64,000 bases of DNA from Bryopsis sp. KO-2023 (lineage: Eukaryota > Chlorophyta > Ulvophyceae > Bryopsidales > Bryopsidaceae): the NCBI GenBank assembly GCA_030272585.1, contig BSYQ01000010.1, positions 2,356,001 through 2,420,000 on the forward strand. Reading direction: 5' to 3'. Made by a program: the position numbers and the translations under genes. Each line of letters starts with the position of its first letter. Within the stretch, counting starts at the first letter, position 1. This document shows, one piece after another, positions 3,501-63,603 of this stretch. The notes below the pieces were generated by a model that saw nothing but the letters and a program-made list of their open reading frames with translations, made no database searches and had not been told where the DNA came from.

Positions 3501-6500
3501 ACTGAGAGTCCTACAGACAGGGAAACATTGGGACAGAGCCAGAGTACAGTTCAGAGTTCACAAAAGGAAAAAGGGGGCTGCTCACCCAGGGGGGGGGTAG
3601 TCGGGGCAGTGGAACAAACACACAATGAGGGACCGACTGTAACTACTGAGAGTCCCACTAACAGTGACATACTGGGGAAAAACCAGAGTTCAGTCTCTCA
3701 CCTTCAAGAGGAAACATTACTCTGCTCACCCAGGGGGGGGGTAGGGGGGACAGTGGAACAGGAGCACCTTGATCTCTGGAAGTACTGGGAAGCCCTCAGA
3801 GGGAAACCACCAGGCAGAAGTTTTAGCGAACACACTACATCCTCTTTATCTCACCTGACGACGATTTGGGAGGAGGTGGCTGACGACCTTCTCGACAACA
3901 CCACAGCAGTAGGGACAGGGGAAAGACTCTGGAACGGACATACTGCTACGGTGCAAACCACTCAGGAACAACCTGCCTGCACGTCGGAAACGCAGTCAGA
4001 GACGGAGGATACAGGCTCAGTGGAATACTGGCGACGCGAATTTCCGAACGTGATTCGTGACGACCTTAGCAGAGACGCAAAGGCGACTGCTGCTCCTCTT
4101 CGGGTTTGCCACAGGGAGGTGAAATGGCGCGTTCCCTTCCACAGGATTCCGCTGCACAACACGGGGATACGGTACTACGCCACCGACGTCGCGCCTAAGG
4201 AGATTCGAAAACTGCTTACCTCGTTGCAGGGGCAAGGCGTCATCCGTCCCCTGGGCGTCGGCGAGCGGGCTCTGTTCTCCCCCGTACTTTTCCTAAGGAA
4301 GCCGAATGGAAAGGTCCGTAAGACGGTGGATTTTCGTTTGCTGAACTCGTACTCCGACGCCTGGAAGACGTCCCTGCTCCATGTCCGGGATGTGCTGAAG
4401 TCGATCCCACCTGAGTGGGACTACTTCACCGTCCTGGATCTGGAGCAGGGCTTCTTCCAGGTGGACGTTTGCGATTCGCTCCAGCCCCTCTTCGCGTTTG
4501 AAACCGGAGAGGGGGACTACACTTACCTCCGCCTTCCACAGGGATGGAATTGTTCGCCAGGGCTGTTCCACTCCCGCATTCGGAGCTCTATCCACGGATA
4601 CCCCGGTCGTAACTTCGTCGACGACCTCATAATCGGCGGAGAAGGCGTCGAAGGCCATGACAGGAACCTGCGACGTGTTCTGACCAGGCTCGACGAAATG
4701 GGATTACGGATAAACAGGGCAAAGGCGGTCGTCAGACAAAAGGAGGTTACCTACTTGGGGTACACGGTCACGAAGGGGAGCTACGGCCTTCGACGCTACG
4801 TCGACGACCAAGTGCGTCAGTTGCCAGAAATGCGCGACGTCAGGGACGTCCGTCAATTCGTCGGCATGCTTAATGTCTGCAGGGGAGTTTGCCCGAATTT
4901 CCATAACATCATTCAACCTCTGCTGGAGCTTCCCAAGGGATCGAATCCGAAACTCATGCAACAGTTGGTGGCAGAAGCATGGAAATCCATACTGACTAAT
5001 AATGTCAAGTTGGGTAATTCAGATTCTGGAGAGTATAATCTGTTTACAGACTGGTCATCCTCTGGGTGGGGGTATGTTCTGTTCAGAGGTACCCCCTCAG
5101 AGGGGTGTATCGTCAGCCTCAACAGTCGAAAGTGTGCGGATAAGGGAGGAGAAAAAGTCAGCTCCTATTTGGGGGAGCTTCAAGCTCTCATATGGGCATT
5201 GAAATCGGTTTCACAGGTGGTGGCTGGGGGTCAGCTAACCCTGCACACTGATTCGAACTCAGCAGTGCAAAGGATTACGAAGTTAGCACCGAAAGAAGTC
5301 GTGGAGGACATCAGAGTGGTGCGTCTCTTGGCTTGGTTGGCAGAGAACTACCCCTCCCCTGGAAGGTTGAGGGTTCAATTCCTGCCAGGGACATCTAACC
5401 CTTGGGCTGATCTCCTGTCTAGATGGTACAGTAGGCCAACACAAACACAAGGGCAGGTGTGTGCACTTGAACCACAAGAGATGCATATCAGTAAAAACAC
5501 AAGCATGGAATCAGGAGGATCCAACAGATCAACAGAACAGGTGCTGGAGCAGGCTGAGGCAGTGGACTCTAAAGAGAGTGATTCAGGAAGGTCTGGCATG
5601 TCAGGAAACACAGAGTTGGGACATGCATATACAGGAGGCTCAAGGGGAGAGGAGTTGGGCAAGATAGCGGAAGGGAAAGAGCTGAGCAGAGATCAGCTGG
5701 AACGGTTGCACAAGGAGGGACACTGGAGCCCACAAAAATTGCTATGGCTGTGTGCACAACATGGATGGAAGGCTAATAGAGGAGATCTGGAGGAAATTCA
5801 GAGGTACTGCCAGACCTGCCAGAGGGTAGCCCCTAAGAAGGAAAAAGAACTTCTTAGGGGAGCTGGGCATCTAACCCACCCTGGTCAAACAGTGGGCATG
5901 GACATCATCGGTCCACTACCCTCTGGTAGGTCTGGCCACAATCATATAGTAGTGGTGGTGGACCACCTCTCTCGTGATTCGATGGTTTGGAAGACAAAGG
6001 AGGTGAAGGGGAAACAGGTCAGAGAGTGTTTAGGTGAGTGGATAGCGACTCATGGATCTCCAGACAACCTATTATGTGATGGAGCTGCCTACTTCCATTC
6101 GAAGGACATGAGAGCATGGTACAAAGACAACCACATTCAGGTTTGGAGGACACCCCCTTATCACCACAGAGCGAATGGAGTGGTGGAAAGGAGGAACAGA
6201 GCTCTGATTTCTAAAATCAGAGTACTGTTGTTGGATCATGGAGGGTATTGGGATGATTGGCTGCAGAAGGCCAACTGGATGGTCTGCAACATGGTGAATA
6301 GAACCACTGGATGGCCACCATGCAAAGTGTGGACACTATCAAGCAAGGAGTGGGATAGAATTCAACAGAGATTGAAGGAAAGCAGAGAAAAGGTGAATGC
6401 ACAGAAAAAATTGTCTGACTGGAATCATTTTCTGGGAGAGGAGGTCCTTTTATATGATTCAGCAAGGGCTGAAAAAAAGGATCAGAAATTTAGTGCAAGT

Positions 6501-8422: not shown

Positions 8423-10191
8423 TCAGCACTCCGGCCAGGGAGGCCTCTCCTCGACCCAATCTTCCAACAGCATCGCAGCCAATCGGGATTTCAGATCATC
8501 GCACATGGGCCTCCGAAAATCCATCGTCTCGATATTGTCGTGGTCAAACCTCAAACATTCCTCCACCAAATCCCTCAGCGATTTCGGGCAATCGCACCTC
8601 ACCTTGGTCAACCCCCCCCATTTAATGCACGCCCCCGTTTCGGTGTCAGTTTGAGACTGAGTGGCTTCATCGTCCTGTTGGGAATTGTCCGGCCCCCCCA
8701 CCGGAGATCGCATAATGCATTCCCACATCATCGCCCCGAGGGAAAACACGTCGATGGATTCGTTTACGCGGATTTTCCCGCCTGAAATTTGTTTCACCAG
8801 TCCGCCGTAGTAAGCCTCAGGGGCGATATATCCTGGGGTCCTGCGCATATCAAGATTCATTTTTTTTTACATTCTTGAGGCGAGAATTGACGAACAGATT
8901 CTCTCTTTTTCCAACTACCCCACGTTGCACATCAGGAAGCCAATGGCCAAGTTTCTGCATCTGGGTGCCTTCCAGCCCACAGTTTTTCTTCCAAAGAGAA
9001 AAAAATACGAAGTCGACTCTACCCAGCCGCCACCAGTTTCAGTGGTGAAAATACCTGGCCTTGATTCATAAATCAGTCATAAATTTTCCATTTTTTTCCG
9101 TCAGAAATCAATCAGACATCTTCCATAAATTTGTTCCCTCATTAGAAATCAGTCAGACATCTTCCATAAATTTCCCTCAATCAGAAATCAGTCAGACTTT
9201 TCCTCATAAGAAATCAGTCAGACATCTTCCATAAATTCCCCTCAATCAGAAATCAGTCAGACATCTTCCATAAATTTCCCTCGTCCAGAGAGGATGACCT
9301 AACAGAAGCACCCCCACCCACTCACCCCCTGATGGTCGCCGTGATAGACCTTCTCAACCGAATGGCCGATGCTCCAAAGTCAGCCAGCTTAGGGTCCAAA
9401 TCCTTCGACACCAGCACATTCGAAGGCTTTAGGTCGTGATGAATCACGTTATGGCTGTGCAAATGCTGCAACCCAGCAACAATGCCATGAAAAATCTCCA
9501 GCAAATCCCGATACGTGCATCTCTGCGCAAACGGAGCATTGCTGTGAATCAGGGAACTCAAATTCCCAGGCAGGAGCTCCTCCACGATAAAAAAGTCCTT
9601 CCCATCGGCCCGTTCTTTCCCCGGCTCCCCCACCTTTCCCCCCAGATATTCCACGATGTTTTTGTGCGGGGGGATTCGCTCGAACACCGCCATTTCCTTT
9701 TTCATTGCTCGACAAGCTTCGGTCCGACTGAGGGCTTGTGCATGTTTGATTGCTACCTCTTGGGACCTCCCGCTCGCGTCGGTGATAACCCCAACTGTTA
9801 CATTTCCGAAACTCCCGCTCCCCAGGCTGGTTTCTGCAACATGTCTCAAACTTTGGACCTCCAAAGAGTGGTGCTTTGCGCTCGGTTGAAATCCGTAAAG
9901 GGGCACCAGAGGGGGGGCCTGCGCTCCATCGAAGGGTGATTGCGTCAGCATGGGAGTCCCTTGACTCAGAGCTTCCATAGGAGAACCCAACGGAGGTTGG
10001 GCGTAATGGCCGCCTGCCCCTGCCGGCTCCGGAGCTAGAGTGGGGGCTGAGAATCGACTGGGGGCGGCGTTTCTCGCATTCTGACCGCCGTTGCTTTCAA
10101 AATCAAAGTCTTCGAAGTCCATTTCCATGCCGTCCACGTCCATTTGGGAGAACCGCTGGGAATTGGGTTGGGAGGTTTCCATTAAATCCAT
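8423..10191 (-). CDS. Serine/threonine protein kinase, two exons
   Basis: The exons are 10191-9326 and 8840-8423, with a GT-AG intron at 9325-8841 that splits the codon for the Gly before TPGYIAPE. The spliced protein is 427 aa. A disordered N-terminus of about 115 residues precedes the kinase domain. The Gly-rich loop GSGSFGNV begins at about residue 124, followed by the VAIK lysine, HHDLKPSN catalytic loop, DFGAS, and the activation segment ending in APE. The catalytic loop has His where RD kinases have Arg, so this is a non-RD kinase. The domain resembles STE/MAP3K-like or plant-type kinases, but I cannot name a subfamily. The reading frame stays open upstream to 10404 and an acceptor-like TTTGCAG precedes it, so an extra 5' exon is possible and the Met at 10191 is a conservative start. 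Confidence 0.85.
9105..9288. repeat. Tandem repeat array inside the kinase intron
   Basis: Five units begin with AAATCAGTCAGAC (or one variant) at 9105, 9146, 9185, 9211 and 9250. Unit lengths are about 41, 39, 26, 39 and 39 bp. Most units share the core ACATCTTCCATAAATT; the third is truncated. A degenerate copy may precede the array at about 9067. The whole array lies within the single intron of the kinase gene. Confidence 0.9.
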
Positions 10192-10404
10192 GGCGTTTGG
10201 TGTCGGAGCCCCGCAGGGGTTTCGGTGGCAGGTGGATTGAAAACAATTGGGCTGTTTGAAAGTTTTTGACAGGGCTTCAGGCGGTGTGGAGGAAGTCGGG
10301 GGGGGTAACCATTCCACTCGGGGTCTGCCGAGTCCGGCCTCCGAAGAAGGATTTGGGGGAGCTATGCTCGATGCTTCGGGACGCCCACCGTCCTGCAAAT
10401 ACAC

Positions 10405-11433
10405 CGAACCGTGGTTTTAGCGTTCTCCCAGCCCCCCTTTTTCCTCTTCCAAATTTAGAAGAATTTTCTCAACCCCGAGTGCTCCATCAGACAACCACAG
10501 TTTGAATTTTGTCAGCAAAATTTTTGAGGGGGTTCCAGAGGCCAGGTGTCTTTCAGGCGAAAGGAAATCACATGGCCTGTCAGATTCCCTTCCACACCGG
10601 GCTTCATTCTAGCTCCCCTGCTTTTTTTTGAAAATGCTTTGGGAAAAGTGAGCCACTGCTGCACACAGATCGAATCCCCCATTCTTCCCCGAAAATTTCC
10701 AATTTTTTTTCTGTAATTGAAATAGAGAATGCAGAAAAGAAAAAAGGAATTCATTGCTAGTCTTTGTGATAAATTCAGCCCCCTGTCTTCCTTCATGGAC
10801 GAATATTCAAAACAGAAAAAGGCAAAAAAAAAAACCTTTGTTGAAAAATCCAGCATTTCTAAAGCAGGAAAAACAATAAAGGAAGGGAAAAAGCACCAAG
10901 ATATCCAACCATCCCACACCCCTCCTCTCAAACCCCCTTCCCCATTGATCTTTTCCTTCTCTTTTCAAAACCCCACACCTTCACAGGCTGAACTGGAGGC
11001 TCGAGTCACACAGGTAACACCGCTAACCACTCGAATCTTTCCCTGACTATTTGCTTTTTTTTCTGCCACTGTACCCGTTGTTCCAGCGAAATAATTGTTA
11101 CGAGCTGGTGAGAGATGTCGGACGATGGCAAGGAATCGCTGCGGGCTTATCTTGTTTTTTTTTTCTCCGCTTTGTCGAACTGGGGTGTGAAATATTACAA
11201 GACGTCCGAGGAAGAGGGGCGGTCTGTGGGAACTCCGTCTTCCTGGGGCAAGCGCTGGACACACAAGGCTCAAACAATGCTCTGTGTTGCTTTTCGTTTT
11301 CTCGTAAGGGTGGTTGATCGTCCATTACTGAGCGTTACGACTGTAACACCCAACCACACAGTCATTTTCAGCTCCAATTCGGGGCCCCAATTCGTTTTCG
11401 CATCCCCCAAAAGTGAGCAACACTCCCGTTGCG
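10405..11433. other. Intergenic region between divergent kinase and lipase genes
   Basis: No convincing gene is seen. The kinase is transcribed leftward and the lipase rightward from here, so both promoters should lie in it. Possible upstream non-coding or short coding exons of either gene cannot be excluded. Confidence 0.45.
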
Positions 11434-18852: not shown

Positions 18853-19120
18853 TATTACAAGATGAATTTGGGGCCACAAAAGGGCCACATTCACCCGAAG
18901 TTTGTAAGGCCTGGGCCACATCCAAGAAATCAATCGAGTTTCCACAAAAATCAAAACCAACAACATTAAGTAAATGCTATATAAACACCCAGCCTTGTAA
19001 TTTCTGTTTTTGAAGTTGGGGCCACATTCTATTTTTTTCGGACAAATTGGGGCCACGAAAGGGCCATAACTGGATGAAACGGCCAAATTTAGGGCCACTT
19101 TGGGGCCAGTGAAATTGAAA

Positions 19121-19160
19121 AATATTTCTCCTACACAATGTAATTGATGTTTGTTTGTTT
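19121..19160. repeat. Dispersed 40-bp repeat, copy 1
   Basis: This 40-bp stretch, starting AATATTTCTCCTACACAATG, recurs at 63564-63603 with no visible difference. Shorter relatives lie near 18156 and 22957. It sits at the edge of the GGGCCA-rich repeat region and is probably the end of a dispersed transposable element. Confidence 0.7.
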
Positions 19161-19168
19161 GTTTGTTT

Positions 19169-19721
19169 GAAATTGAAAAAAAATACACTGCTGCAGACCT
19201 ATTATTGGACATGGTCTGAAGAATTAGCGGGATATCGAGTCCCGCTATTTCCGTACAGTTGTTCGAAGAACATGGTCAGGCATGCGCAGCTACGCTAACG
19301 CCACCTCAGCGAGCAAGCAAGATCGACTTAGTCATACTCAAAAAGTCGCGCGACCGCGATCACCAGCCCCAAGAAAGAGCTGGAGGCTCGCCGCTGCCGG
19401 CGTTTCGACAACCCGACGCAGGAAGGAAGACGAACGCACGCGACTCGCGACAGCTGCGCGCGGAACGCTGCGATGTGTCATGTAGAACTGGTCCGTCATG
19501 CTGCTGTGAAAATAGCGTTCGTGAATTGGACTTGGTGATATTGCCAACTCAGTCAGACGGAAATTTAGGGGGTTTTCGAGACGCCGCCCCATTAGTCCAA
19601 GTGCGTGTCAAGATTTTTGTGGCTACGATCACCAGATTTACGTTAGTCACAATCCCTGACGAGTCTCTCCACCTCTTTTTGCCTTTTCGTGTTCGCAGGT
19701 TATTTGTTCCATTCCGTAAGC
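19169..19721. other. Upstream region of the cyclodipeptide synthase
   Basis: This stretch is more GC-rich than its surroundings. A long ORF crosses it in another frame but resembles nothing. A good splice acceptor (TTTTCGTGTTCGCAG, ending at 19698) lies 23 nt before the CDPS start codon. The gene may therefore have a 5' untranslated exon and intron here, or an unseen N-terminal coding exon. Confidence 0.4.
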
Positions 19722-20453
19722 ATGGGGGAAAAGGCGACGGAACCCTTGAAGCGTCAAGCCACGTCTGGTGTGGTTCTTTTTGGAATGTCGCCAGGTAACG
19801 GTCACTACACCAGAAAGAATATAACCGCAAGGTTGCAGTATCTACTTTCGACGCTTCCCGATGGGTGGACCGTGCACCCATGTGTTCCACAGGGACCGTC
19901 GGTTTGGACATATCTAGCACTTGGCTACACGGAGATCCACGCCAGACGCACTGCGCGCAAGAAATGGAGGGAACTATCTAAATACGCTCGCGACGCAGCT
20001 ACTGACAACCCACGCTACAAGGACTACAAGTGGGACGACCTGACAGGAGGATCCGCGAATGCCTCCTACGCTGCAGCCGTGGAACGAATGGAAAAAGCTT
20101 ACGAAACGAACGACGCCTTCCGGCGTGACATCCAGACGACCACGCTGGGCGTGTTGGAAAAGTTCGGCAAAGCGACTGAGGAGTGTGTGGCTGTGGCTTC
20201 CCGCTACTTGCTCGAAGAATTTGCTGGCCTGACACTCGTTCGAGAAGTGCTTGGTGCGCACGAGGTGGTGTTGGTTTACCACAAACGGTTTGTTCCTCTG
20301 GAGCGGTTTCTCGAGGGTGCGCCGTATGGGCTGCCTCCAGTGGCGAATTTCTCATATGCTGTTGTAAACGCACCAGCAGACCGCTCGACAGAGTTGAACG
20401 ATGACGAGCCGGGCGGCTTCTTCGTGTGCAATCATGATTTGATTAAACGATGA
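19722..20453 (+). CDS. Cyclodipeptide synthase (CDPS), NYH type, intronless
   Basis: The protein is 243 aa, the usual size for the family. CDPSs take two aminoacyl-tRNAs and join their amino acids into a cyclodipeptide (diketopiperazine), using a class-Ic tRNA-synthetase-like Rossmann fold and a serine nucleophile. The signature GMSPGN places the catalytic Ser at 23. Tyr162 and Glu166 sit four residues apart in YLLEE, and Tyr186 lies 20 residues after the Glu. These spacings equal those of the bacterial model enzyme AlbC (Ser37, Tyr178, Glu182, Tyr202). Asn26, Tyr186 and His187 fit the NYH subfamily. Basic residues follow in an RRTARKKWR helix (about 75-83), where tRNA is bound in known members. 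No intron is seen, unlike the neighbours, and eukaryotic CDPSs are rare, so transfer from bacteria is a reasonable inference. The two amino acids used cannot be told from the sequence. Confidence 0.9.
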   Translation: MGEKATEPLKRQATSGVVLFGMSPGNGHYTRKNITARLQYLLSTLPDGWTVHPCVPQGPSVWTYLALGYTEIHARRTARKKWRELSKYARDAATDNPRYKDYKWDDLTGGSANASYAAAVERMEKAYETNDAFRRDIQTTTLGVLEKFGKATEECVAVASRYLLEEFAGLTLVREVLGAHEVVLVYHKRFVPLERFLEGAPYGLPPVANFSYAVVNAPADRSTELNDDEPGGFFVCNHDLIKR

Positions 20454-22495
20454 ATATTTATAGATGGACGTGGAGTTTTAATGGTATATTTATTGAATTT
20501 ATTTTTTTTACACTTTTTTTTTTCTTGCCCGTCAATGGGCCATGCAACAGGACTTTGTTTTTGTGTTACATTTTCGATGTGGCGGACATACTGATCAGAG
20601 TCAATATGTGCAAGAGGGACAGGCCAAACGGGGTAGCGTTGGGGGAATGTCAATTGGGTCAGGCTGAAGGGAGTTGGCAGTTTTTGGACTTGTTGGATTG
20701 TTTTGTGTGCATTCGATCGAATAAATTCGCGAATGGGCATTGTTACATTTCAGAGAAACCAGTTTCTCAACAAGCTTGTAACCAAAAAGAAAAATATTCT
20801 TTTTTCAGGAGAGGCGATAAAGGAGTAATGCTGGCTCGTGCCTGTCTTTTTGTTCAATCTTTGTATTGATCAGAGCTACCTTATGAGCTGCCTGCGGCAC
20901 TACCCTCACGAACCCTCTCACTCCAACTTTCAAAGTCGAAGTTCGACACTCGCTTCCCCACACAAATCGAAAATACCCATCTCGTCCCCTTTCATAGAAC
21001 ATTTTAACAACGAGAAGGGTTTGGTGGCTGAACGAACAAATCTGAAAAAAGAAAACTCTTGTTAGAACTTAAGGTACTGAAGTCTCTACAAGAGTTACTC
21101 TTTTTCAGATTCGTTTGCAATTTTTTGGACGGCAAAAGGGTCAAAATCTGTTTTTATAAGACAATTTTTAGGGCCACAAAAGGGGCTAAAGCCTCAACAA
21201 ACAAATCACCCCCTATTCTGAGGAAAGATGCCACCTCCCTATTTTATGTTGCTCGAATGTAAAAAGAACGAATAAGTCCATATGACAAGGACTTGGAGGA
21301 GGGAAAAAAAGTGTCGATCAAAAAGTACACAGAGAACGAGAACGTAGAATTTGTTGTGGGTTCTAAAATGGAAAGATAATTTCACTCATCAAGGGATGTA
21401 AATTGGCGTGGATTGAGCTCTTCCTCACAGCACAATTCCCAACAAAAAAGCATTTTTGTACTTTTCAATTGACTGTTTTTTGTTTTTGTTTTTCCTGCAA
21501 TATTGGGGATGATGGCTTGGTTGCTTCTTTTGTGTTTTTGTTGAGTTCTTTTTATTGGGTAGCTCTGACAAGTGATCAAAGGACGGAGAGGGTGACATTA
21601 GAAACATGCTGCAGATATCATCCTGTCCCCCCCCCCCCTCTTTTTGTACCTGTTTCAGCATCATGGAGGGTTAACGATTGCACACTGTTGGTAACCAAGC
21701 ATCTTTTGCTTGATTATTCACAAGATGGCAATGTCCAGGACAGACTCGGATCAATGGGCAGATCGACCCGAAAGGTCCCACCGTATTGTAAGATATCCCG
21801 AAAAATGAACCTCCTTACAGTATATATTTCTCTCCACCCCTCTCCCATAGTTTTTTCGATAGACTTTATTTCAGCGAAGTTTGCTCTAATTTCGGAAGGA
21901 CTCGCCTCTGGTGGATACGCAGGATGAACTCCCGAGCTGACGGCAGCCTGGGAGTCGGCGGAAGACGCAAAAGATTGGTTAGCAGCGGACCAGTACAGTC
22001 CCGACACTAAGATCGAAACAAGTGTCGACAACAGTCACCACATAGCTTGCCAGAAACTGATTCTCCCAGTTCTCTCCGCAGTCCGCACCCACCAAAAGCA
22101 AGCGTAGTGCAAGGCGATACATCGTCTCAGAGCGTCCCCTTTGACTGAACCAACATAAATATCGAACAGCTTGCAAGACTCTAAGAGTGTGCAAGGAAAG
22201 TAGTTCTGCTCTTGGGTTCCCAAAAGTCAGTCGGTCTGGTCGTCGTCCTTCTCTGGGAGAGGCATGCAGCACGCTGTCGACGGCCAGATTCGGATTCTGG
22301 AGGGGGGAAGTCTTGTTCGTGAGGGTGGGGAGGGGTCAGGCGAGTCTACAAGGGTGAACAGCCAGCCAACACGTCCGTCAAATCTTGCTTGTTCGTTTGT
22401 TGCGCTCTCAAGCGCAAATTGGCTTCCAGCAACTCACTGATACATTTCAACCTTTCAGATATTTGTGTGTGGAGTTTCTTTGAGATAAATGGGCT
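20454..22495. other. Intergenic region with possible coding relics
   Basis: No intact gene is supported. Near 21170 is a short GGGCCACAAAAGGGG fragment like the repeats at 18-19 kb. At about 21925-22108 on the plus strand there is a 60-codon open stretch ending in TAG that reads like ordinary soluble protein but matches no family I know. Confidence 0.4.
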
Positions 22496-23376: not shown

Positions 23377-23515
23377 TTTGCTGGGGTTAGCTAATCCTGC
23401 CCACCTGTCACGTAAATGGAAGTGCCAGAATATTTCAAGGGGCCACGGAAGCCCTCGACACCAAGGAGAAAAAAACAAAACCAAGTGCTGCTTTACAGAA
23501 ACGACAACTTGAACG

Positions 23516-24217
23516 ATGAAGGTGTGCATCGTCGGGATCTCGGGGAAACTCGGTCAGTATATGGTGAAGCACTGCTTGGAGAAAGGCTACGAAGTGGTGG
23601 GGGTATGTCGTGAGAAAAGCGTCAGCAAGCTGGACCAGTGGAAAGACAGCATCACCGTGTTTCCGGGACCGACCAACGACCGCGAGGTTATCAAGAAAGC
23701 GGTGGAGGGTTGCGATGCGGTGCTGGTTGTGCTGGCTCCGTGGGGTGTCGTCGACTACTCTTCCGGAACTGCCCAGGCGGTGATGGACTTTTCGCGTCCG
23801 GGGGCGAGGTTGATATTTTCTTGCGGATGGCATATCACTCGCGACGGGAAGGACAAGTATTCGAAAGGCTTCCTGTTTCTCGTGAGTGCCGTCGGCTGGC
23901 TGGCGCGGACATTGAGGTTCGTGGACCTCAAGGATCAGGTGAAGGCATGCCAGCTGATTTTCGACAGCGACACGCGCTGGACCGTCGTGCGGGGAAGCGA
24001 CCTGGAAGAAGGGGAGAGTCAAGGACTGCCGGTGTGGAGCGAACACGTGCAGGACCCCGTTCTGAAAAGCAACTTGACGCGTCGCACGGATTTCGCGCTC
24101 TTCATGGTGGAGGCGATCGAGAACGACGCACTGGTGCGTCAAGCGCCCGCGATTTGTGGATGTCAGACGCCTTCTGCGCTGGCGCACGCTGGGGAAGCTC
24201 CTGAGGGAACCAGTTGA
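23516..24217 (+). CDS. NAD(P)-binding NmrA/atypical-SDR family protein, intronless
   Basis: The protein is 233 aa. It opens with a beta strand and the dinucleotide-binding motif G7-I-S-G10-K-L-G13 (GxxGxxG), followed by a VVGVCR segment at the second strand. Later blocks (EGCDAVLVVLAP near residue 70, and RWTVVRGSDL near 160) match the NmrA-like/atypical short-chain dehydrogenase layout. It lacks the classical YxxxK catalytic pair in the usual place, as many NmrA-like proteins do, so it may be a reductase, a lyase or a redox sensor. There is no signal peptide. The single-exon structure differs from most neighbours and is shared with the CDPS about 3 kb upstream on the same strand. A role in modifying the CDPS product is possible but only inferred from proximity. 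Confidence 0.8.
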   Translation: MKVCIVGISGKLGQYMVKHCLEKGYEVVGVCREKSVSKLDQWKDSITVFPGPTNDREVIKKAVEGCDAVLVVLAPWGVVDYSSGTAQAVMDFSRPGARLIFSCGWHITRDGKDKYSKGFLFLVSAVGWLARTLRFVDLKDQVKACQLIFDSDTRWTVVRGSDLEEGESQGLPVWSEHVQDPVLKSNLTRRTDFALFMVEAIENDALVRQAPAICGCQTPSALAHAGEAPEGTS

Positions 24218-33471: not shown

Positions 33472-36400
33472 TCAGGTATCCACTACTTTTAACCATTCGA
33501 ACACACCGAATCCATGATAGCATTTGGAGAAGTCTGTGTCGCTTGCTAGAGCACCCAACGCCGACGTGAACCCTGCATTATTCATGAGGGAAACCCGGCT
33601 CTGCTTGACATTTCCCCTCAAATCCTGGAAACCGTCATTATCGTCAGGGCCAGCCACCAGAGCTCCAGTCAGTTCCTGTGGGTTAGCAAACTTGCTCCGC
33701 TGATACGCGGCCGGGCACTCCGCAGGATGATCAGGGCAAGACGCCCCCTGATGGATGGGCTGAGTCGGTGAATCATCCCCCCACCCCACCACGAAACTCC
33801 TCCCGCTGTCCCCGAGGGCGTAACCCACTTGCGACATGGCCCAGCACTGATAACCCCCGAGTTTCGACCTTTTGACCCCCTCGTTTTTCATGTATTTGTT
33901 GTAAACGAGAGCTATGAATGCGATGTTGGACACTCGTGGCAGAGGGTCGGTTTCCCCTTCCCATGCCAGTCTGGCGGGGGTCACCAGAACTTCGTCCTTC
34001 CATGTGTCCAGGTGCTTCTCGGCGCACTGGATGTAATCTTCGACCCTCGTCACTTTCGCCAGGAGGGTGCAGACAGCTGGTCCAACGTTGTCATAGTCAA
34101 ATACGTGGGAATCGCTCTGGAACGCATTCATATGCTCCCTGGCTGCATCTATGTACTTCTTTTCATTCGTTGCGAGGTACAGCCAAGCTGCAGCCCATGC
34201 CAGATCGTCCTCAAAGCTGGTGGAAACGTATGCGGGGCTGAATATCACATCGGAGTAGAGTCCTTTAGACTTTACACCGAACTCGTACAGCTGTATGGCA
34301 TGTTCCAGCAGTGCCTTTGAATATGTCGGGTCTGACTGACTGAACACCACCGAGGCCGATGCCAGAGCAGCAGAAGTCGCCCCAGCCACATCACTCCCCG
34401 GAGCCCCAGGCGATATTTTTTTCCCGACCCTTCGCCTGCCTTTCAACACGTCCCGGGGGCGGCCAGATCTCGACACGCTGTTGACCAACACATACAGCTC
34501 ATCCTCCGCTGTGTGTGCCTCCAGGAAATAGTCTGTCGCCCAACGAATCGTCCCTTCTGCATGTTTTTTCTGATCTCCGTACCCACTCGGGAACTCGATC
34601 AAACCCCATGCCAGAATGCTGGTCGCCACAGCCATTGGAAATCCGTGCTTCATGGTGTCCATCCCGTCATAGTAGCCACCGACGAGCGAGGTGCCCTCCA
34701 CAGTCCTATCCAGCACACCGGAATCGGATCGCCATGGGATTCTGTTGTCTGGGGGGAGGAAGCCAGACCTCTGAGCATCGTAGAAAAGAAGCGATTTCGA
34801 CAGAGCCGATTCGTAGTCCCAGACCTCAAAATGTCTCAGCCACATCCCAGCAATCGCCGCTCCCAGAGCAGCGACCGACACGATGGCTGCCAGAATTGCC
34901 ATGCCTTTCATCAGCCTCGTTTTGAACAATGTGTAGTACAGAACCACCACTGGGGGAACGGCATTATAAACACACAGCGCAATGCTCAGAATTATGACGC
35001 TCTTCGAGTTTGGCTCTGGGTAGCCTGCCAGGAGAAACAGCCCAGCGACCAGACTCCCTATTGAAATCACCAAGGTGAGGGCAGCAACCGTTACTTCGAC
35101 AATAACGCACGGCTGCTTCACAGGCCTCTTATTGGGTGTGGAGTTGCCCGGGGAGAAAACAGAACCCTCCGATCTGGCCTCTTCGGTGAAACTGGTCCCC
35201 GAGGCAGCCCCAGTGATTTCGGATGAAGATAATGGCCCCCCACTGTTGGCAGGCTCCTTCTCCCCGATCGAAATCAAATACGGCTTGTCCGTGGGTTCAT
35301 TGGCTGGGCTCTTGGTGGTGGTGCCGGCCGGAGTGTCCTCTGCGTTGCATTTTTTCATGGTCTCCACCACGCTGTCCACAGTGGCAGTGAAATCGTCGTG
35401 GCAATGCATTTTCCGGCTCAGTGCTTGTGCCAACCCTCGGAAGAAGGCGATCCAGAAAAGCTGATCAGCCAAATTGGACAGCCAGATTTGCAGCCCTGAT
35501 GAGGGATACCAGGGAGCGTACATCGTTACGGTCAATAGTGGGTAATATACAATGAATCCCTTCAGAAATTCCTCGTTCAGGACGGCAGGCATGACCCCCA
35601 GCCATATTGCCAGTGCTGGTACCAGCAGAGCGATCGGAACCAGCAGCATGGACACCAGCTGAGAAAGAGTGGCTGCCAAATAAACGAATTTTTCCAGAAT
35701 GGGGAATGAGCTTCCAAAGAGGGGATTTCGCCTTCCGAAAAGCACCAACACGGAGGACAGGGCCCTGCAAGGAAAATCAAAGTGAATGTGTAAGCAAAAC
35801 CAACTTTTTACAGGTGAACTTGCTCTCTTGGCCAATGGATTTGTTAACAGTTGAGGCAAGGTAGAAGAAGAGGCTGGCCAAATGAGGTTGAACTGATGGT
35901 TCCACGGATGGAGTGTTTCTGTGGGTGAGGGTTGGAGATTTTCTGATTGCATGACACATAGCACGTTTCACAGAGTTGATTTTTTGGCAGCTTCGATGGA
36001 AGAAAAGGGCAAGGCACGCACCAGTTCGATCGGTCGGAAATCAGCCTTCCGATACCAGGGGCGCGTTCCGACGTCGCCAAGGGGTCCTCCAAATATATGA
36101 ACTTCTCCCCTCTCTTGGCCATTTCCGCCACCAGGGCGTAATCTTCGGAAGGAACAGTTTTGTCGAACAGGTCAACTCTCTTCAGCACATCCAACCGAAC
36201 GGCGAAGTTCATCCGCAGAGAGGTGGTGGGAATGTTGCCCAGGGCCGAGCCCACGCCAGTCGTTCGTAGTCTGCGTGCAAGGAAATTCGCGACGAAAGAG
36301 TCACTCGGCAGTCCTTGGGGAGACAACACAAGGCCCGTGTGCTCCAGCACAGCCAGCTTCGTTTTGAAAAATGTTTCGTGACAGATTTGGCCGGCGTCGA

Positions 36401-36998: not shown

Positions 36999-38441
36999 GT
37001 TTTCTTTTTCTCTTGCTCGACCGCGGCCCTGGAGTAGCTTTATCCCTTGCGTGACTTCGAAGAGGTCGTACAATGACTAGTTTCTTGCACGCACGTGTCT
37101 CACGGTGCGTTTCCGTTGTAACTCATCACCACCAGCGTAACGGCTGCAGGCGGCTGGGTGGATTTCTATTTCCGGGCGGGGGGGTTGGTGGTGTTCGTTT
37201 CTGCCAGACTTTCAACCCTCTGCTTGTCGCCCAGGGACACATCTCGGTGCGGTTTGTTGGTTGCGTTGGATGTTGGCTCGATCACGAGGCTTGGTTCGTT
37301 CGTTTGGATGAAGGAGGAACGGGTGCCAAAGAATGCTGCATCACAGCAACGACTCGCAGGAGTGCAGGAATTCACTTTGATTTCGACGGGGTTTTCTTGA
37401 CACTTGAGATCGAACCTTTTTGGACGGAGAGGTGCCACACGGTGTGCGACGGCAAAGGAAGCCACCACGAACTCGTTCTCATATCAGTTCGCCACGAGAA
37501 AAGGATGGATGGCGTAATTCCATGCACCTTCCCGAGACGGCGATAGCCCGTAATTCCTGCGCTACGCAATCACGCCGTGCTCAACACACCGGAGAGGGAG
37601 GGGCTTTTTGAAAGCAGGGAGCCGACCCTCTGTTTGGGGAAGCCTCCATCACGAAACCGAGAAACTGCGCACAGCAGTACGCCCTGGTGACAGATGATCA
37701 GTCAGAACAGCCCGAACACGATCAGACAATTGGGGTGTTGGCACAGAAAAATAAGTAAAGCGTTGTCTCGTTGTCCCAGTGGAATTTCTGATCGGTTCCA
37801 AATGCTCGCACGTCCAACCGACGATAAAAGTCCACTGATATGAATGATGGATTTGGAGAAAGCCCAAACAAGCGCGGCACTTGATACTGGCGCAATTGTG
37901 ATACGGCCGCTTAGGTCACATGATTTATGCATTCGAGGTATGACTGGCTTGGTGCAGGCGTAGTCCCACGTTGTCGAGACAGTTTGGGTTGTGTTGTGAC
38001 ATGGGGTTTGGAAATAGGTTGAATCATATGACTCTGGATCCAGGCCTAGGTACGAGGTAGGAGTTGGCAATTCGTTCCAGAGAGAGGGGAAAATGTCAAA
38101 AAATGAAGATGAGGAGTGGTTGCAGTGAACAGTTTGTAACACAATTAACTTTCGCCTACTTGTGAAAAACATCACAAACATCTCACACTACCCGGGGCAA
38201 AAAGAAAGAAAAAAACAGAAGGAAAGGAGACTCCCCAGCAACAACACACATTTTGCTGGAAATTCGGAAATTCTCTAATTCACCCTTTCTTTTGGTGCAA
38301 GATCCGATCCACACAATGTGTGTCAGACGGAGGCAGCGATCGCTTTCCGGATCGGCTTGGAAACTGGGGTCGATGAGGGAGCCATCAAATTCCCCCCTTT
38401 TAGTGTGTGTTCCTTTCATTCGTGTCGTGCGCGCGCCTCCG
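36999..38441. other. Divergent intergenic region between GT2-GH9 and KTI12
   Basis: No supported gene; the ORFs here resemble nothing and look like chance. The two flanking genes are transcribed away from each other, so promoters for both are expected. Confidence 0.5.
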
Positions 38442-40972
38442 ATGCCACTGATCGTTATCAGCGGCCAACCGTCCAGTGGCAAGAGCACAGTGGTGCAATC
38501 TCTGGCAAAGCGCTTGGAAGACAAGCAACAAGAGGTGGTGGTGGTGGATGAGCCTGGATTGCTGCTGAAGCGTGACGAATCGTACAAAGGTGTTGTTGCA
38601 TGGACAGCACATTGGTGTTTCGTTTTTTTGCATGGGAACCCCCTGTCTTGAATCATGATTTCTCTGCAACCAGACGCTGTCTGCCAGAAAAACACTCGGG
38701 GCAGCTTGAGGTCTGCAGTGGAGCGAGCTGTTACGAAGACGGCTGTTGTGATTTTGGATTCTATAAACAACATCAAGGTAGCCTCCCGGGTTCTTTTGAA
38801 TTTATTAGAAGAAAAAACGAGGTTTGAAAGAGGAAAGCATCCCCATAAAAAAAAGGAAAATCGACAGGATGGGCACTCTCTTAAAAAAATAAAATAAAAT
38901 TGTTGATTATTTTGGGATCGAAACCATGGAATATCAATTCAGATAATTTTAAGCATTTTTTTTGTTGGGAGTTGTGACAAGGAGCGCTGGGGGTGTTTGA
39001 GGAACGGAAGGTCGTAATGCAACAAAACGCTTCTTTCTTGTTTGCCTAGGGATTTCGATACGAACTTTGGTGCATTGCGAGAACAGCAGGGACTAGGTAT
39101 TGTGTGGTGAGTATATATTGACACCCTGCTTCTTCGCTGCTTTTTTTTTGGGGGGGGGATTGTTGTTGTTTTTTTGGCTGGCAATATGAGAACTGAGCGG
39201 TGAACAGCTACGACCTCAGCTTTTTTTTTCCCACGCAAGTTTTTGCTTGCAAGATGCGTGCTCCATTTTTCTTGTTTTGTTTGTTCTTCCCCTTTTTTTG
39301 GGGGGTGGGTTTGCCATGAACGGCTTCTGATTTTGTTTTCTGTTTTTTAAATCAAAGATCCACGTTGATACCAAATCCGAAGTCTGCGAAAGCTGGAACA
39401 AGGACAGGGAGGGAGACAAGTACAGCGACGAAATGTGAGCTCAAATGGAAAAAAAAAACGACGCACTCACAGACAGCAGTGAAAAAAAAAAGAAGAAAAA
39501 AAAAATCCCACTTCTTTTTCAAACCCTCTCTGTCTCTCTCACATTAAAATTTTCTTGACAAGGGTTAATTGCCAATGCAAGCAAAATTTTTAAATTCTAT
39601 TTTTGATTTTATTTCAATTTTATATTTAAATTTATTTCGATTCTAGTTTTAGTTTTATTTAAAATTTAATTAAATTAATTATTTTTTTGTGGAAATTAAG
39701 TGTATGTCAGTGACCTGATTTTTGGACTTGTCTGTTGGATGGTGGCGTTTCAGATTGGAAGATCTTTTGAGATCGTTCGAGACCCCTGATTCCAGGAATC
39801 GTTGGGACCATCCTTTGTTCACAGTCAAACCAGGTTAGTTGAAGAAACAGAAAGAACCTCATTCAACACTTGATCCGAAATGGCGGAAATCTACCTACTG
39901 GATTCTTTCACCTTGACGATTTGTCTTGTGGGGCCAAGGAGGTTTATTCGCTCAATTAATTCCTGCTTATTCCCGCTTGCATTTCTCCTTTTGGACGCAA
40001 TCAAACCCCCCCCCCCAAAAAAAAAAAAAAAAAAAAAAAAAAAGAAATAAACATGGAATAAGTTATTGGCATTGGATGCATTCACCGATGTTAGATTGTA
40101 GAGCATGATCTGACCCCCACCCCACCTTCTTGTTTTTTTAAGCTATTGGTGAAATCGAGGTGCCCTTGACCGCTGCTGTGAACGCCATTCTCGGAATCAA
40201 CGATCAGAATTCGAGGGGATCCATTGCCAGAAACCTGACTCCCACATTGGCCACCGTAAACGCATCGCTTTCTGCAACCAACACTCAGTACGAAATCGAT
40301 AAAGCTGCCCAGGTGGGAAACGATTGAATTTATTTATTTAATCAATTAATTAATTAGTTCTTTTTCTTGGTTTGGTATATATGTACATGTATTTTTGGTT
40401 GGCATCGGTCAATTTGCGAATCAATTGACAATGTTTTGAATGTGCCATTTAGACAGTTTTGGACGAAGTGGTGAGAGCTCAGTCTGAGGCGGGTGGGGAA
40501 GCTGCAGGGATTGTGGAGTTTGAAAAGGAGCTGCCGACTTTGCGGCTGGACAGACACGTGACAGTCGCTGGTGAGCTCTTCGTACACCAAACTCGGACAA
40601 AAAAGAAACAAGAAATAAAAAAACAGACTTAATTCGAATCGAAGAAAAATAAGGAAAATAGGGGGGGGGGAGGCAATGCTTGCCATTGTTTCAATTCAGA
40701 AGAAATTAAAAAAATAAAATAAGAATTGAACGTAGAAAAAAACTTGTAAAAAAAAAAGCTCGACAATTAGCTTCTTCTTGTGAGTTTTTGTGTGCTTTTT
40801 TGCTGTGTTGGTTGTAAGGCTCCAATTTCTCGTTTGCTTCTTTTCAACAGAGCTCAGGAGACTGAAGCGTGGGTTCCTGAAACTTGCCACTCAAATCCAA
40901 AGGTCCAGAGTTACGGATTCTCAGAGCGCAAAACGGCTATTCATAGGATACTTAGAAAACGGGATTCAGTGA
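38442..40972 (+). CDS. KTI12: KTI12-like P-loop protein (Elongator partner), eight exons
   Basis: The exons are 38442-38589, 38674-38777, 39051-39107, 39358-39434, 39754-39833, 40143-40312, 40453-40570 and 40851-40972. All are bounded by GT-AG with consistent phases, giving 291 aa. The N-terminus is the nucleotide-binding loop GQPSSGKS (residues 8-15) after a short hydrophobic strand. The order DSINNIKGFRYELWC and later NRWDHPLF matches the KTI12 family. KTI12 proteins are P-loop ATPases that associate with the Elongator complex and support modification of wobble uridines in tRNA; the closest relative is PSTK, the kinase of Ser-tRNA(Sec). The length (yeast about 313 aa) and the NRWD block favour KTI12. 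Introns carry long homopolymers, including C11-A27 at 40006-40043. AAR2 begins only 22 bp after the stop codon. Confidence 0.9.
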
Positions 40973-40994
40973 GAAGCAAAACCATACAATCACC

Positions 40995-42221
40995 ATGGCC
41001 AGCCCCAGTTTGTACCAAGTCGATTTAGACCCTGATTCTGCACTCGACGCGGTGAAATCAGGAGGGACGATATTGCTGGTCGACGTACCCCCCGGCACAT
41101 GCATAGGAATCGATCACAATGCATTTGCGGTGGGGGAAAAATTCGTTGGGGTGAAAATGGTGCCTCCAGGTGTGCATTTCATTTCCAGCTCGTCTGGGGA
41201 TTCCCAGGGGGGTTTCGCACCCGTGGTGGGTTTTTTTGTGCATGTCAGACCAGGGGACATCGTTGTTAGGCGTTGGAACAAGGAGGAGGAAATGCTGGTT
41301 GGCATGGAAGGGGGCGAATCGGAGGAGGAAGGGTACAAGCGAGGGGTGTTGAATTTTGATTTTGATTCCGGATTGGCCCCGTATGATTTGCGAGGGTGGA
41401 AGAAATGGAGGGGCTTGAGCGAGTTCATAACTGAGGAGATCGTTGAACGGGTTTCACCGGTGGGGGGTTGCATGTCAGTCATGGGGGAAGGCATCAAGAT
41501 GGATGTGAATGGATCCACTGTTGCTGAACGGGCTCTTTTGGAACAGTTGGGGAAAGGGAGGGTGGATTTGAAGGACGCCGGTGTCGAAGGGAAAGTTTCG
41601 GGGAATCTGGGCGGGCGTTGCTTCTACACCAAAATCCACAGCTTCGCGAGGTCCACAGAATTAACGGGTTCCGAACTCACAGCGATCCATTTGGACAAAT
41701 CTCCCATTCTGGAGAGTGTTTTGACATCAAAGTTTTCGGCAGATCCGGACGGGCTGCTGGGGGAACTGCAGTTCGCCTTTGTGAGTTTCGTCATGTGTCA
41801 GTCTCTGCAGGGGCTCCAGCAATGGAAATCCATCCTCGGCTTGATGTTGGGCTGCGAACATGCATGCCTCGACACCCATCGAGATTTGTTCGTCAAATTC
41901 TCTAGATGCGTTCGACATCAGCTAGCTTTTGGGCTGGGGACGTGGACCTCGTCAGACTCAGAGGCATCCAGCTCCAATTCGGAGGGGTTTCTGCTGGAAG
42001 GCATATTGGGCGATTCTGTGCTGGATGAGAGTTTTCTCAAGGGGGGGTTGATGGATTTTTTGGGTTGCGTGCATGAGGCTTGTGAAGGGGAATCTGACGG
42101 GGTCGATGTCGAGCTGTATGGGGAGTGTCTAAAAATCGGGGAATTAGTCAAATTAAAGTTGAATTGGGAATTAGAGGATGGAGAATGCGGCGAGTATGCA
42201 CCAGTTGTTGTGGACTTGTGA
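40995..42221 (+). CDS. AAR2: AAR2 splicing factor, single exon
   Basis: The protein is 408 aa and unspliced. The start is ATG in the context CACCATGG. The N-terminal half has the AAR2 beta-barrel motifs: GGTILLVDVPPGT near residue 20, a G.DH.....FxGVKMxPPGxHF block, and GFFVHVRPGDIVVRRW. The next conserved features are PYDL..W..LS with VERVSP, and then the helical C-terminal half (LLGELQFAFVSFVMCQS). AAR2 binds the U5 snRNP protein PRP8 during cytoplasmic assembly and is exchanged for BRR2 in the nucleus. The length agrees with other members (about 350-400 aa). No intron is present, unlike the KTI12 gene directly upstream, and the 22-bp gap leaves no room for an independent promoter outside KTI12 exon 8. 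Confidence 0.93.
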   Translation: MASPSLYQVDLDPDSALDAVKSGGTILLVDVPPGTCIGIDHNAFAVGEKFVGVKMVPPGVHFISSSSGDSQGGFAPVVGFFVHVRPGDIVVRRWNKEEEMLVGMEGGESEEEGYKRGVLNFDFDSGLAPYDLRGWKKWRGLSEFITEEIVERVSPVGGCMSVMGEGIKMDVNGSTVAERALLEQLGKGRVDLKDAGVEGKVSGNLGGRCFYTKIHSFARSTELTGSELTAIHLDKSPILESVLTSKFSADPDGLLGELQFAFVSFVMCQSLQGLQQWKSILGLMLGCEHACLDTHRDLFVKFSRCVRHQLAFGLGTWTSSDSEASSSNSEGFLLEGILGDSVLDESFLKGGLMDFLGCVHEACEGESDGVDVELYGECLKIGELVKLKLNWELEDGECGEYAPVVVDL

Positions 42222-49956: not shown

Positions 49957-52900
49957 ATGGACGCGCTCAACGTGGGTCTGGCGGAGCTGGAAAGTGTCCG
50001 GGCGAAAGCTGAGGAGGGATTATTCCCTAGACGGGATTTCAAAGCGCCCTTAACGTTCGCGGCTGCCCACACCGAAGTCCAACGAAGGGATGATGCGAGG
50101 AAGTTGAGGGAGGAATCCAGGAAGGATGCGAGGTCGAAGGGGCGCTCGCCCCAGTCCCGAGTCCCGACGAACAAAGGGGCCGTCATAGGGGGGCGCAGGG
50201 ATGACCTTTCGCCTTGGTGGCTGGTGATGAAGGTATGGGTGTTTTCGTTTGTTGGTTTTTTTCGTCGGCTTCGTTGTTGTTTTTCCTCTTCTTGTTCTCG
50301 GCATTATTTGCCTCGGTTTTCCCACCCCTTTCTGGACAACAGGGAAAAAAAAAAATCGCTTTCACATCATCGAATGCCGAGGCAAATTACCCCTGACCGA
50401 GCGACGGTTGTAGGGAAATAGTGGGTCGGCCCCCACCCGCCTCCAAACGGATTTTTGTTTCAACCGTGTGAATGTCTTTGTTTCTGGTTGAAATTTGCAG
50501 CTGATGTTTTCATGTTTCGTTGGCTTCGTAGGACTACTTCCGGGAGGTCACTCAGGAGGACGTGATGGCCGTCATCCCCTGTCGAGAGGCGCTGGACGCC
50601 ACCACCGACCCTGCCTTCCGAATCCCTCGCGTGGGTCGAGACACCGAGGTCATCGACGAGGCTGAGTTCTGGGCTAACCGCATCTCCAAAAAGCCCAGGA
50701 CTGACCAGAGCACCGAGGCCCCCCAAGCAGCAAACGGGGCTGATGGGAGGCCAGAAGGAGATGCTGTGGAGGATACACCACGCGGGGTGAGTAGTTGGGT
50801 TGCTGCTTTGTTCTCCTCGCCTTGTATTATCAAAAACTTGTATAGTATCCCCTATGGTTTCTCAAGAGGGGCCAGGCAATAGCCCCCCCATTGCATTGTA
50901 ATGACCGATGCCCCAAGTGCCTGCCCAAGACGACACCTTCAAGCAGCATTTTCCACAAGTTTGGTTTATTCTCAAGGTTCCTCATTCCAGAAGTGTGACC
51001 AGTCACACCTGGACTTGTCTGTCCTCAAGCAAGCACCAATCTGTCCAGACCCAATCGTGAATGCATTCCCATATCTTTTTTCTCAACACACACAGGCAGC
51101 CCTGGTGTCCCAGCGACGGAGCGACAGGCTCGCTTCGAAGCTGGCTGCCCGGGAGGGTTCTCTGTCACTGGCATTGGACTCTGGCCGGGCAGAGGAAATC
51201 GCGGAAGCCTCTCCGTGGCTCGGTCTCCCCCAAACTCCAGTCCAGGATGTGAGGCAGCACCTGCTGGATGTTTGCTGTGGGCATGAACTGGCAGTCCTCG
51301 CGTCGGAAATCGATGCGATCGAGGGGGGAAGGGGGCAAGTTTTGGGACTGGGGGTTGGGGAGTGTCAGGCTCGAGGCCATCAAGATGAGGACGATTTCGA
51401 TGTATCCACGGAGCAAAAGGCTGCTTTGCTGGATACATTGAACAAGGTCAGCCACCCTCCCCAAACACATGCACAATACCGTTTCAAGTTAGTTCAATCA
51501 TGGTTTCAAAAGGGGTTTTCCCAGTTGGGTTGCTCAAGTTTCAAGCATGCATTTCAAGTCAAGATTCAATTTCCGTCATTTGACCGAGTGTCAGACCAAG
51601 AGATTCGCATCAAGCGGGTTGTATGGTGTCCAGATTAAGAAAACAAAACCCTATGGAGTACACAAACACACTGCATATACCATGCATTGATCAAACTGGA
51701 GACTGCTTTTATTCACGTTCGATTGTTGCTTTTTCCCCTGCAGGCAGTGGTCAAGCATCCTCCACTCTCAGGGGATTTCGTGCCGGAAGTCGTTGCCCTT
51801 GCTCAGCCAGAGAAGGGCCAACCGAACGGCAATCTCGACGTAGAGATGACTGACGCTCCGGCTCAGTCAGCCGATTCCAATCGACAGCACCCCCCAGAGG
51901 CAAACGGAAACATCTCCTTGGCCAGCGCTCATCCATCGCCTGACGCCATGCACCAAGGGCCAGCCCAGGAATGCAACCAAAAAGGCTGCGACCCCATGCA
52001 TCCAGCCACTCAAATCCTTCTCAACCGAGGGCTGCCCCCTCATGTGTTGGAGTGTGCGACGTCCGTGGCGACTGGAATGATGAGTAATGGGCAAAACCAT
52101 CAGTTGCCTGGTATCCTGGAGAGCCCAGCCACCCCTCCACCAGCTCCTGGCTGTCAATCGGACGTGGAAACGCCTCCGAATCGTTACCTGTGCTCGTCGA
52201 ATGGCTTCCGTTTTCCTGCTTTGACAAACCCAGACTCCACCCCTGTGTTCAACTCCAAAACGAGGTCCAGCATGGAGGATCCAGTCGACCTCAATTGTCC
52301 GGTTATCGATGAGGGCAAGGGGGTGGCAGGTGGAAACGGGGATGTTCGAGGTTCGAAGTCGACCACCGCACGTCGGCGAAGGAAAGATGTGGATTATAAT
52401 GTGCTGGCTGGAGGTAAAACTGGACCCCCTCAGAATCAAACCGCCGGGAAGAGGAAGGCGCAGAAATCAGCATTCGGAAATCAAATGGAGGCTCTATCAA
52501 ATCCGACATATAATGCTGTCCAAAATGCGATCGCCCAAGGTATGTGTGAAGGGCACAACTGTCTGACTTTCTAGACATGGGGCCGAATGTATTTGATCTT
52601 TTCCCGTGTCTTGTTTTTATGTTTTGAGGGGAGGGGTGTGGGGGTTATCTTGTAGAGCAACCATTTCATCGGTTTTCCTATGGTCCAGAAAGCTGGCCAT
52701 TTCATAGGTGCTTGGACAAAAGTTTCATCCCCTTACCCCCCCCCCCCCCCCCCAAAAAAAAACAAAAAAACAAAAAAACATCGACATTTATATATATGTA
52801 TGCATAGACATTTGAAACTCTTAAAAAAAACAGTGCCGCTGAACTGGAGATTAGGCATGTGGACTGAGACTGTTTTTGGTGATATCGTTTTTCATAGGAG

Positions 52901-63563: not shown

Positions 63564-63603
63564 AATATTTCTCCTACACAATGTAATTGATGTTTGTTTG
63601 TTT
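63564..63603. repeat. Dispersed 40-bp repeat, copy 2
   Basis: This matches 19121-19160 in the same orientation with no visible difference. The surrounding sequence is not related to the 18-19 kb repeat region, so only this end segment is shared. Confidence 0.7.

Follow-up and report, generated by a model that had tools for sequence, protein, structure and literature searches.

The green alga Bryopsis sp. KO-2023 (Ulvophyceae, order Bryopsidales) carries in its nuclear genome a gene for a cyclodipeptide synthase (CDPS) of the NYH type, which is predicted to be working and belongs to a set of seven intact paralogues located on a single chromosome; we give this reading a probability of about four in five. 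The gene lies in the window, i.e. the whole stretch of 64,000 nucleotides analysed here (C10:2356001-2420000; contig C10 measures 5.14 Mb in an assembly of 91.09 Mb and 28 contigs). CDPSs, best known from bacteria, divert amino acids from protein synthesis and turn them into ring-shaped dipeptides. The Bryopsis protein is a member of this known family in an unexpected lineage, and what it adds is the expansion of the family and the variation of its substrate pockets.

The initial annotation had identified the open reading frame as a CDPS of the NYH subtype, and both parts of this assignment hold. The Pfam search that it proposed gives a significant match to PF16715 (72.5 bits against a cut-off of 27, E 5.3e-20), TIGR04539 is matched at 92 bits against a cut-off of 45 (E 3.8e-26), and the GMSPGN motif is present; by family match the frame is confirmed, at the level of sequence, as a real NYH-type CDPS. 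The predicted structure of the protein (pLDDT 87) has a Rossmann fold like that of class Ic aminoacyl-tRNA synthetases, and among the 50 structural matches listed rows 1-26 are solved CDPSs and rows 27-50 tyrosyl-type synthetases and engineered variants. In three of three MAFFT alignments AlbC residues Ser37, Asn40, Tyr178, Glu182, Tyr202 and His203 correspond to Ser23, Asn26, Tyr162, Glu166, Tyr186 and His187, where AlbC Asn40 and His203 are the N and the H of the NYH trio. The catalytic roles of the AlbC serine, Tyr178, Glu182 and Tyr202 are described in PMC7566563, and the catalytic cycle in section 3 of PMC5816076. The spacing of these residues, previously called exact, is that of AlbC from Tyr to Glu (4) and from Glu to Tyr (20), but from Ser to Tyr it is 139 against 141. 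With Asn26, Tyr186 and His187 the NYH trio is complete, His187 stands where the XYP type has a Pro after the catalytic Tyr, and in the tree a branch with support of 100/99 separates the NYH proteins from the five XYP rows. Counted against the reading are the weak matches of a single-sequence PDB search (best E 0.059), the low identity to bacterial CDPSs (about 20-30%) and the Ala found in paralogues L012, L014 and L015 at the position equivalent to AlbC Gly35.

Table 1. Features of the window and of contig C10 (window positions unless prefixed C10).
Feature	Position	Strand	Remarks
Retroelement, open frame of 2045 aa	498-6632	+	Reverse transcriptase, RNase H, protease-like, integrase; about 13 kb from the CDPS
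Kinase	9325-10416		Eukaryotic kind
CAG, possible 5' UTR splice acceptor	19696..19698	+	16 of the 20 preceding nt are pyrimidines
CDPS coding sequence, 243 aa, intron-free	19722..20453	+	Open frame, start ATG 19722, stop TGA 20453; PF16715, TIGR04539; model matches solved CDPSs
Codons Ser23 (predicted nucleophile) to Asn26 within GMSPGN	19788..19799	+	Aligned with AlbC Ser37, Asn40; identical in P0005 and all 7 intact copies
Codons Tyr162 to Glu166, predicted catalytic pair	20205..20219	+	Aligned with AlbC Tyr178, Glu182; invariant in the paralogue alignment
Codons Tyr186, His187 (Y and H of the NYH type)	20277..20282	+	Aligned with AlbC Tyr202, His203; invariant in the paralogue alignment
TGTAA, possible poly(A) signal	20777..20781	+	From the sequence
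SDR, NAD(P)-binding, NmrA/epimerase-like	23513-24214	+	Downstream of the CDPS, same strand
GH9	33475-35967		Eukaryotic kind
KTI12	38166-38648		Eukaryotic kind
AAR2	40956-42218		Eukaryotic kind
PHD	52855-53766		Eukaryotic kind
Actin family	59812-61132		Eukaryotic kind
CDPS fragment L018	C10:2883272-2883451	+	Near intact L013, on the strand opposite to L013

The coding frame is open throughout and its ATG has an A at -3 and a G at +4. The absence of introns noted earlier is true of the coding sequence; in the 5' UTR there is an acceptor-like site 23 nt before the ATG, with a score equalled before 2.7% of the 1874 ATGs of the window, and a 5' UTR intron is possible for this gene. Comparison of the upstream regions of the seven copies showed that such a site is not consistently common to them and that L015 has none; a 5' UTR intron shared by all paralogues was not borne out. 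The TGTAA downstream of the gene may be a poly(A) signal of the green-algal kind; the same pentamer is found within 420 nt past the stop codon in five of the seven intact copies and is absent there in two. Scanning the window for Rfam families and tRNAs gave no matches.

The gene had been regarded as a single one, a view which the genome searches overturn. The Pfam CDPS search of the whole genome gave eight matches, each over the cut-off and each on C10, and a protein search gave eleven rows, ten of which are CDPSs and fall into nine places on C10, from 107 kb to 2.88 Mb; these counts are lower bounds. Row L019 (E 0.148) was discarded as not CDPS. Seven copies (the window gene and L010-L015) have unbroken coding frames; L016/L017 constitute an interrupted copy and L018 is a fragment, both counted against our reading. 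Three proteins deposited for Bryopsis sp. KO-2023 as "hypothetical protein" (BSKO_11118, BSKO_11241 and BSKO_10830) correspond to L010, L013 and L015, respectively, at 100% identity over the full length and in one uninterrupted piece each. L012 and L016 lie within a 2.4-kb duplication of 89% identity, L010 and L011 have 864 bp in common at 90%, and L014 and L015 about 700 bp, also at 90%. The latter two matches are near coding-sequence size, but the 3' ends carry no poly(A) tract, and an origin as retrocopies is not claimed. Pieces of mobile elements that resemble integrases or endonucleases were seen near L010 (a match below the Pfam cut-off), L014 and L015, a hint of transposon-aided spread.

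The initial annotation had placed the gene among eukaryotic genes and argued against contamination, and both points stand. Scanning of 15 of the 193 open segments of at least 100 amino acids in the window identified genes of eukaryotic kind on both flanks of the CDPS (Table 1). Bacterial contamination or misassembly, in favour of which it can be said that 50 bacterial MAGs are reported from the same culture (PMC12509668), is hardly credible: the copies occupy nine diverged places on one contig of several megabases with eukaryotic genes on both sides, the 2.4-kb duplication surrounds two of them, a repeat of 51 bp that precedes the CDPS by 0.6 kb (19110-19160) is present again 44 kb away (63553-63603, 92% identity), and the closest bacterial protein among the matches listed is only about 30% identical. 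That the CDPS genes belong to the nuclear genome of a eukaryote is supported by the length of the contig, by the nine paralogous places and by the three deposited Bryopsis proteins. The GC content of the seven coding sequences ranges over 0.539-0.569 and that of six neighbour segments over 0.523-0.588; for GC3 the corresponding ranges are 0.553-0.614 and 0.591-0.726, with four of the seven copies (0.553-0.584) just under the lowest neighbour (0.591), which we count against our reading. Among the scanned segments the enzyme nearest to the CDPS is the SDR, 3 kb downstream, which might have a tailoring role. An ORF beside L010 (near C10:2199874-2200179) looked P450-like by eye and was dropped after empty Pfam and PDB searches.

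Over positions 15-215 the mean pairwise identity of the seven copies is 0.63, and it is 1.0 at the six catalytic positions and 0.43 at fifteen pocket positions (P1 0.50, P2 0.34), defined as in section 5 of PMC5816076. Of 5000 random sets of fifteen non-catalytic positions, drawn regardless of solvent exposure, 0.6% have an identity as low as that of the pockets; the pocket position AlbC 119 aligns with Trp104 in one alignment and with Leu107 in two, and Trp104 was used. The paralogues combine fixed catalysis with substrate pockets which are more variable than the remainder of the protein. For all 21 pairs of intact copies Nei-Gojobori dN/dS lies within 0.16-0.52, the values for older pairs being rough because dS is 0.55-2.29; in the four recent pairs it is 0.48-0.52, which is also compatible with relaxed constraint and counts against our reading. 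These data bear on the alternative that the Bryopsis genes, related to CDPSs as they are, have ceased to yield cyclodipeptides, either as decaying copies or because they catalyse another aminoacyl-tRNA reaction. We consider this unlikely. In its favour, the clade is divergent (stem of 1.47 changes per column), dN/dS is about 0.5 in recent pairs, there are one broken copy and one fragment, and fungal CDPSs are described as inactive in E. coli in section 14 of PMC5816076; set against this are the catalytic residues, all six of them the same in the seven copies despite variable pockets, and dN/dS below 1 in every pair.

Pocket motifs were scored with BLOSUM62 against the 32 motif pairs of Table 2 of PMC5816076. 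With P1 and P2 together, the window protein, L010, L011, L012, L013 and P0005 (a further protein described below) come nearest to a Leu plus Val/Leu/Ile enzyme, and L014 and L015 to a Pro-Leu enzyme followed by a Pro-Arg enzyme; with P1 alone, the window protein is nearest to a "Phe/Ile?" motif. The motifs weakly suggest, at low confidence, aliphatic or prolyl substrates. Activity, product and role of the Bryopsis enzymes are inferred, the reaction by analogy with AlbC. Pocket P1 would take up an aminoacyl group from one charged tRNA, and the enzyme would transfer it to Ser23; pocket P2 would supply the second aminoacyl group, to be linked with the first, and ring closure of the dipeptide would give a 2,5-diketopiperazine. 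The short N-terminal stretch ahead of the domain suggests that cytosolic aminoacyl-tRNAs would be the substrate. Duplication and pocket change may have led to several products, perhaps, and this is speculative, serving in defence, in interactions with microbes or in signalling. A secondary-metabolite route in Bryopsis, as suggested by the initial annotation, is a fair proposal.

The window protein, searched singly against 5.8 billion proteins, gave five hits: the query itself, three Bryopsis proteins and P0005, which is 46% identical and encoded on a contig of 1191 bp. An alignment search (best 8000 candidates) added at least one further protein, at 30% identity, a broader alignment used as query gave 35 hits, and a scan of prokaryote genomes confirmed eight loci among 35 pattern stretches. 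A survey of 369 genomes of one class gave a match at E 0.001 in eight and above the cut-off in three, and is uninformative on the donor. The initial annotation had called for a tree with bacterial, fungal and animal members and had suggested horizontal acquisition. In a tree of 51 rows, with bacterial members included and animal, ciliate and fungal CDPSs absent, a single clade (100/100) with a long stem unites the Bryopsis rows and P0005; the next group is made of eleven Patescibacteria- or Woesearchaeota-type rows, with weak attachment (93/48), and no bacterial donor is indicated. Inside the clade P0005 groups with L014 and L015 at 99/93, and the window copy, weakly, with L010-L012 (86/52). 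A topology with the seven Bryopsis copies together and P0005 outside is not rejected (p-AU 0.078), and the grouping of P0005 was dropped as evidence on the age of the family. A kinship of the Bryopsis rows and P0005 with four actinobacterial rows, a group picked after viewing the tree, was rejected (p-AU 0.018).

Since CDPSs are mainly bacterial, the family was most likely acquired horizontally. Its source was probably a bacterium or an archaeon, and the length of the stem suggests that the transfer is old. An intracellular bacterial donor is conceivable by analogy, since plastids of Bryopsidales have genes of bacterial origin, with intracellular bacteria suggested to have aided the transfer (PMC4487195), and CDPSs are predicted in 'Ca. 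Megaira', which live as symbionts of algae (PMC10132079). Entry of the family through a giant virus instead of directly from a prokaryote is improbable. Powai lake megavirus has a CDPS (PMC6403294), the predicted fold of which matches our model at E 5.9e-11, but identity is 17%, the neighbours scanned are cellular genes and a retroelement, and no relatives were confirmed among the 54 and 56 pattern stretches from two viral-contig scans, whose patterns are Bryopsis-like and would overlook distant viral CDPSs. BFVD matches being distant as well, a viral origin was set aside.

Among solved structures the closest comparison is with the NYH-type enzymes YvmC (Bacillus licheniformis), BtCDPS and AlbC (Streptomyces noursei), to which identity is about 20%; the Bryopsis protein has three extra residues near 46-49 with respect to most bacterial rows, and differs from these enzymes in being encoded in an algal nuclear genome at nine places. 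The Patescibacteria/Woesearchaeota CDPSs (P0006, P0009-P0012, P0014, P0015, L020-L022), the weakly supported sister group of the Bryopsis clade, have in common with it the GMSPGN motif, a TYxALGY-like stretch and a Trp near 104. They are 26-31% identical to the window protein where tested (alignment with the window protein first), and unlike Bryopsis they are bacterial or archaeal and some are fused to other domains. In a Patescibacteria MAG (L022:1875-6543) the CDPS gene (4980-5624) lies between dnaK and dnaJ, with grpE upstream; in a Nomurabacteria MAG (L021:2330-3748) the CDPS is part of a fusion protein with a family 3 extracellular solute-binding domain; in a Woesearchaeota MAG (L020:3057-4858) it adjoins a divergent gene with Lrp/AsnC-type domains. 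Section 14 of PMC5816076 describes the CDPSs of Nematostella, corals and marine worms, which like that of Bryopsis are eukaryotic, marine and NYH, and fungal CDPSs, eukaryotic too but of the XYP type as opposed to NYH in Bryopsis. Animal, ciliate and fungal sequences were not recovered by the present searches.

A passage of a 2014 review (PMC4159871) gives Ascomycota, Annelida, Ciliophora and Cnidaria as eukaryotes with CDPS genes, and among the matches listed in the open-licence literature (titles and abstract starts) no report of a green-algal CDPS was found. The enzyme family, mainly bacterial, is already known; a family of CDPS paralogues in a green alga would be new. A wider reading, tentative and in our judgement somewhat short of an even chance, is that bryopsidalean algae have an old, chromosome-bound and still diversifying CDPS family, the first in the plant lineage, with paralogues that would make different diketopiperazines for defence or signalling. 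The presence of a whole family of such genes in a green seaweed would mean that tRNA-dependent peptide chemistry reaches into the plant lineage. The Bryopsis paralogues are natural variants, with catalysis fixed and pockets varied, for studies of specificity, and they offer a way to ask which partner, the alga or its microbes, produces the diketopiperazines that are found in algae. With an algal family at hand, the idea of a CDPS as source, as proposed for the diproline pheromone of a diatom (PMC8027222), would become testable.
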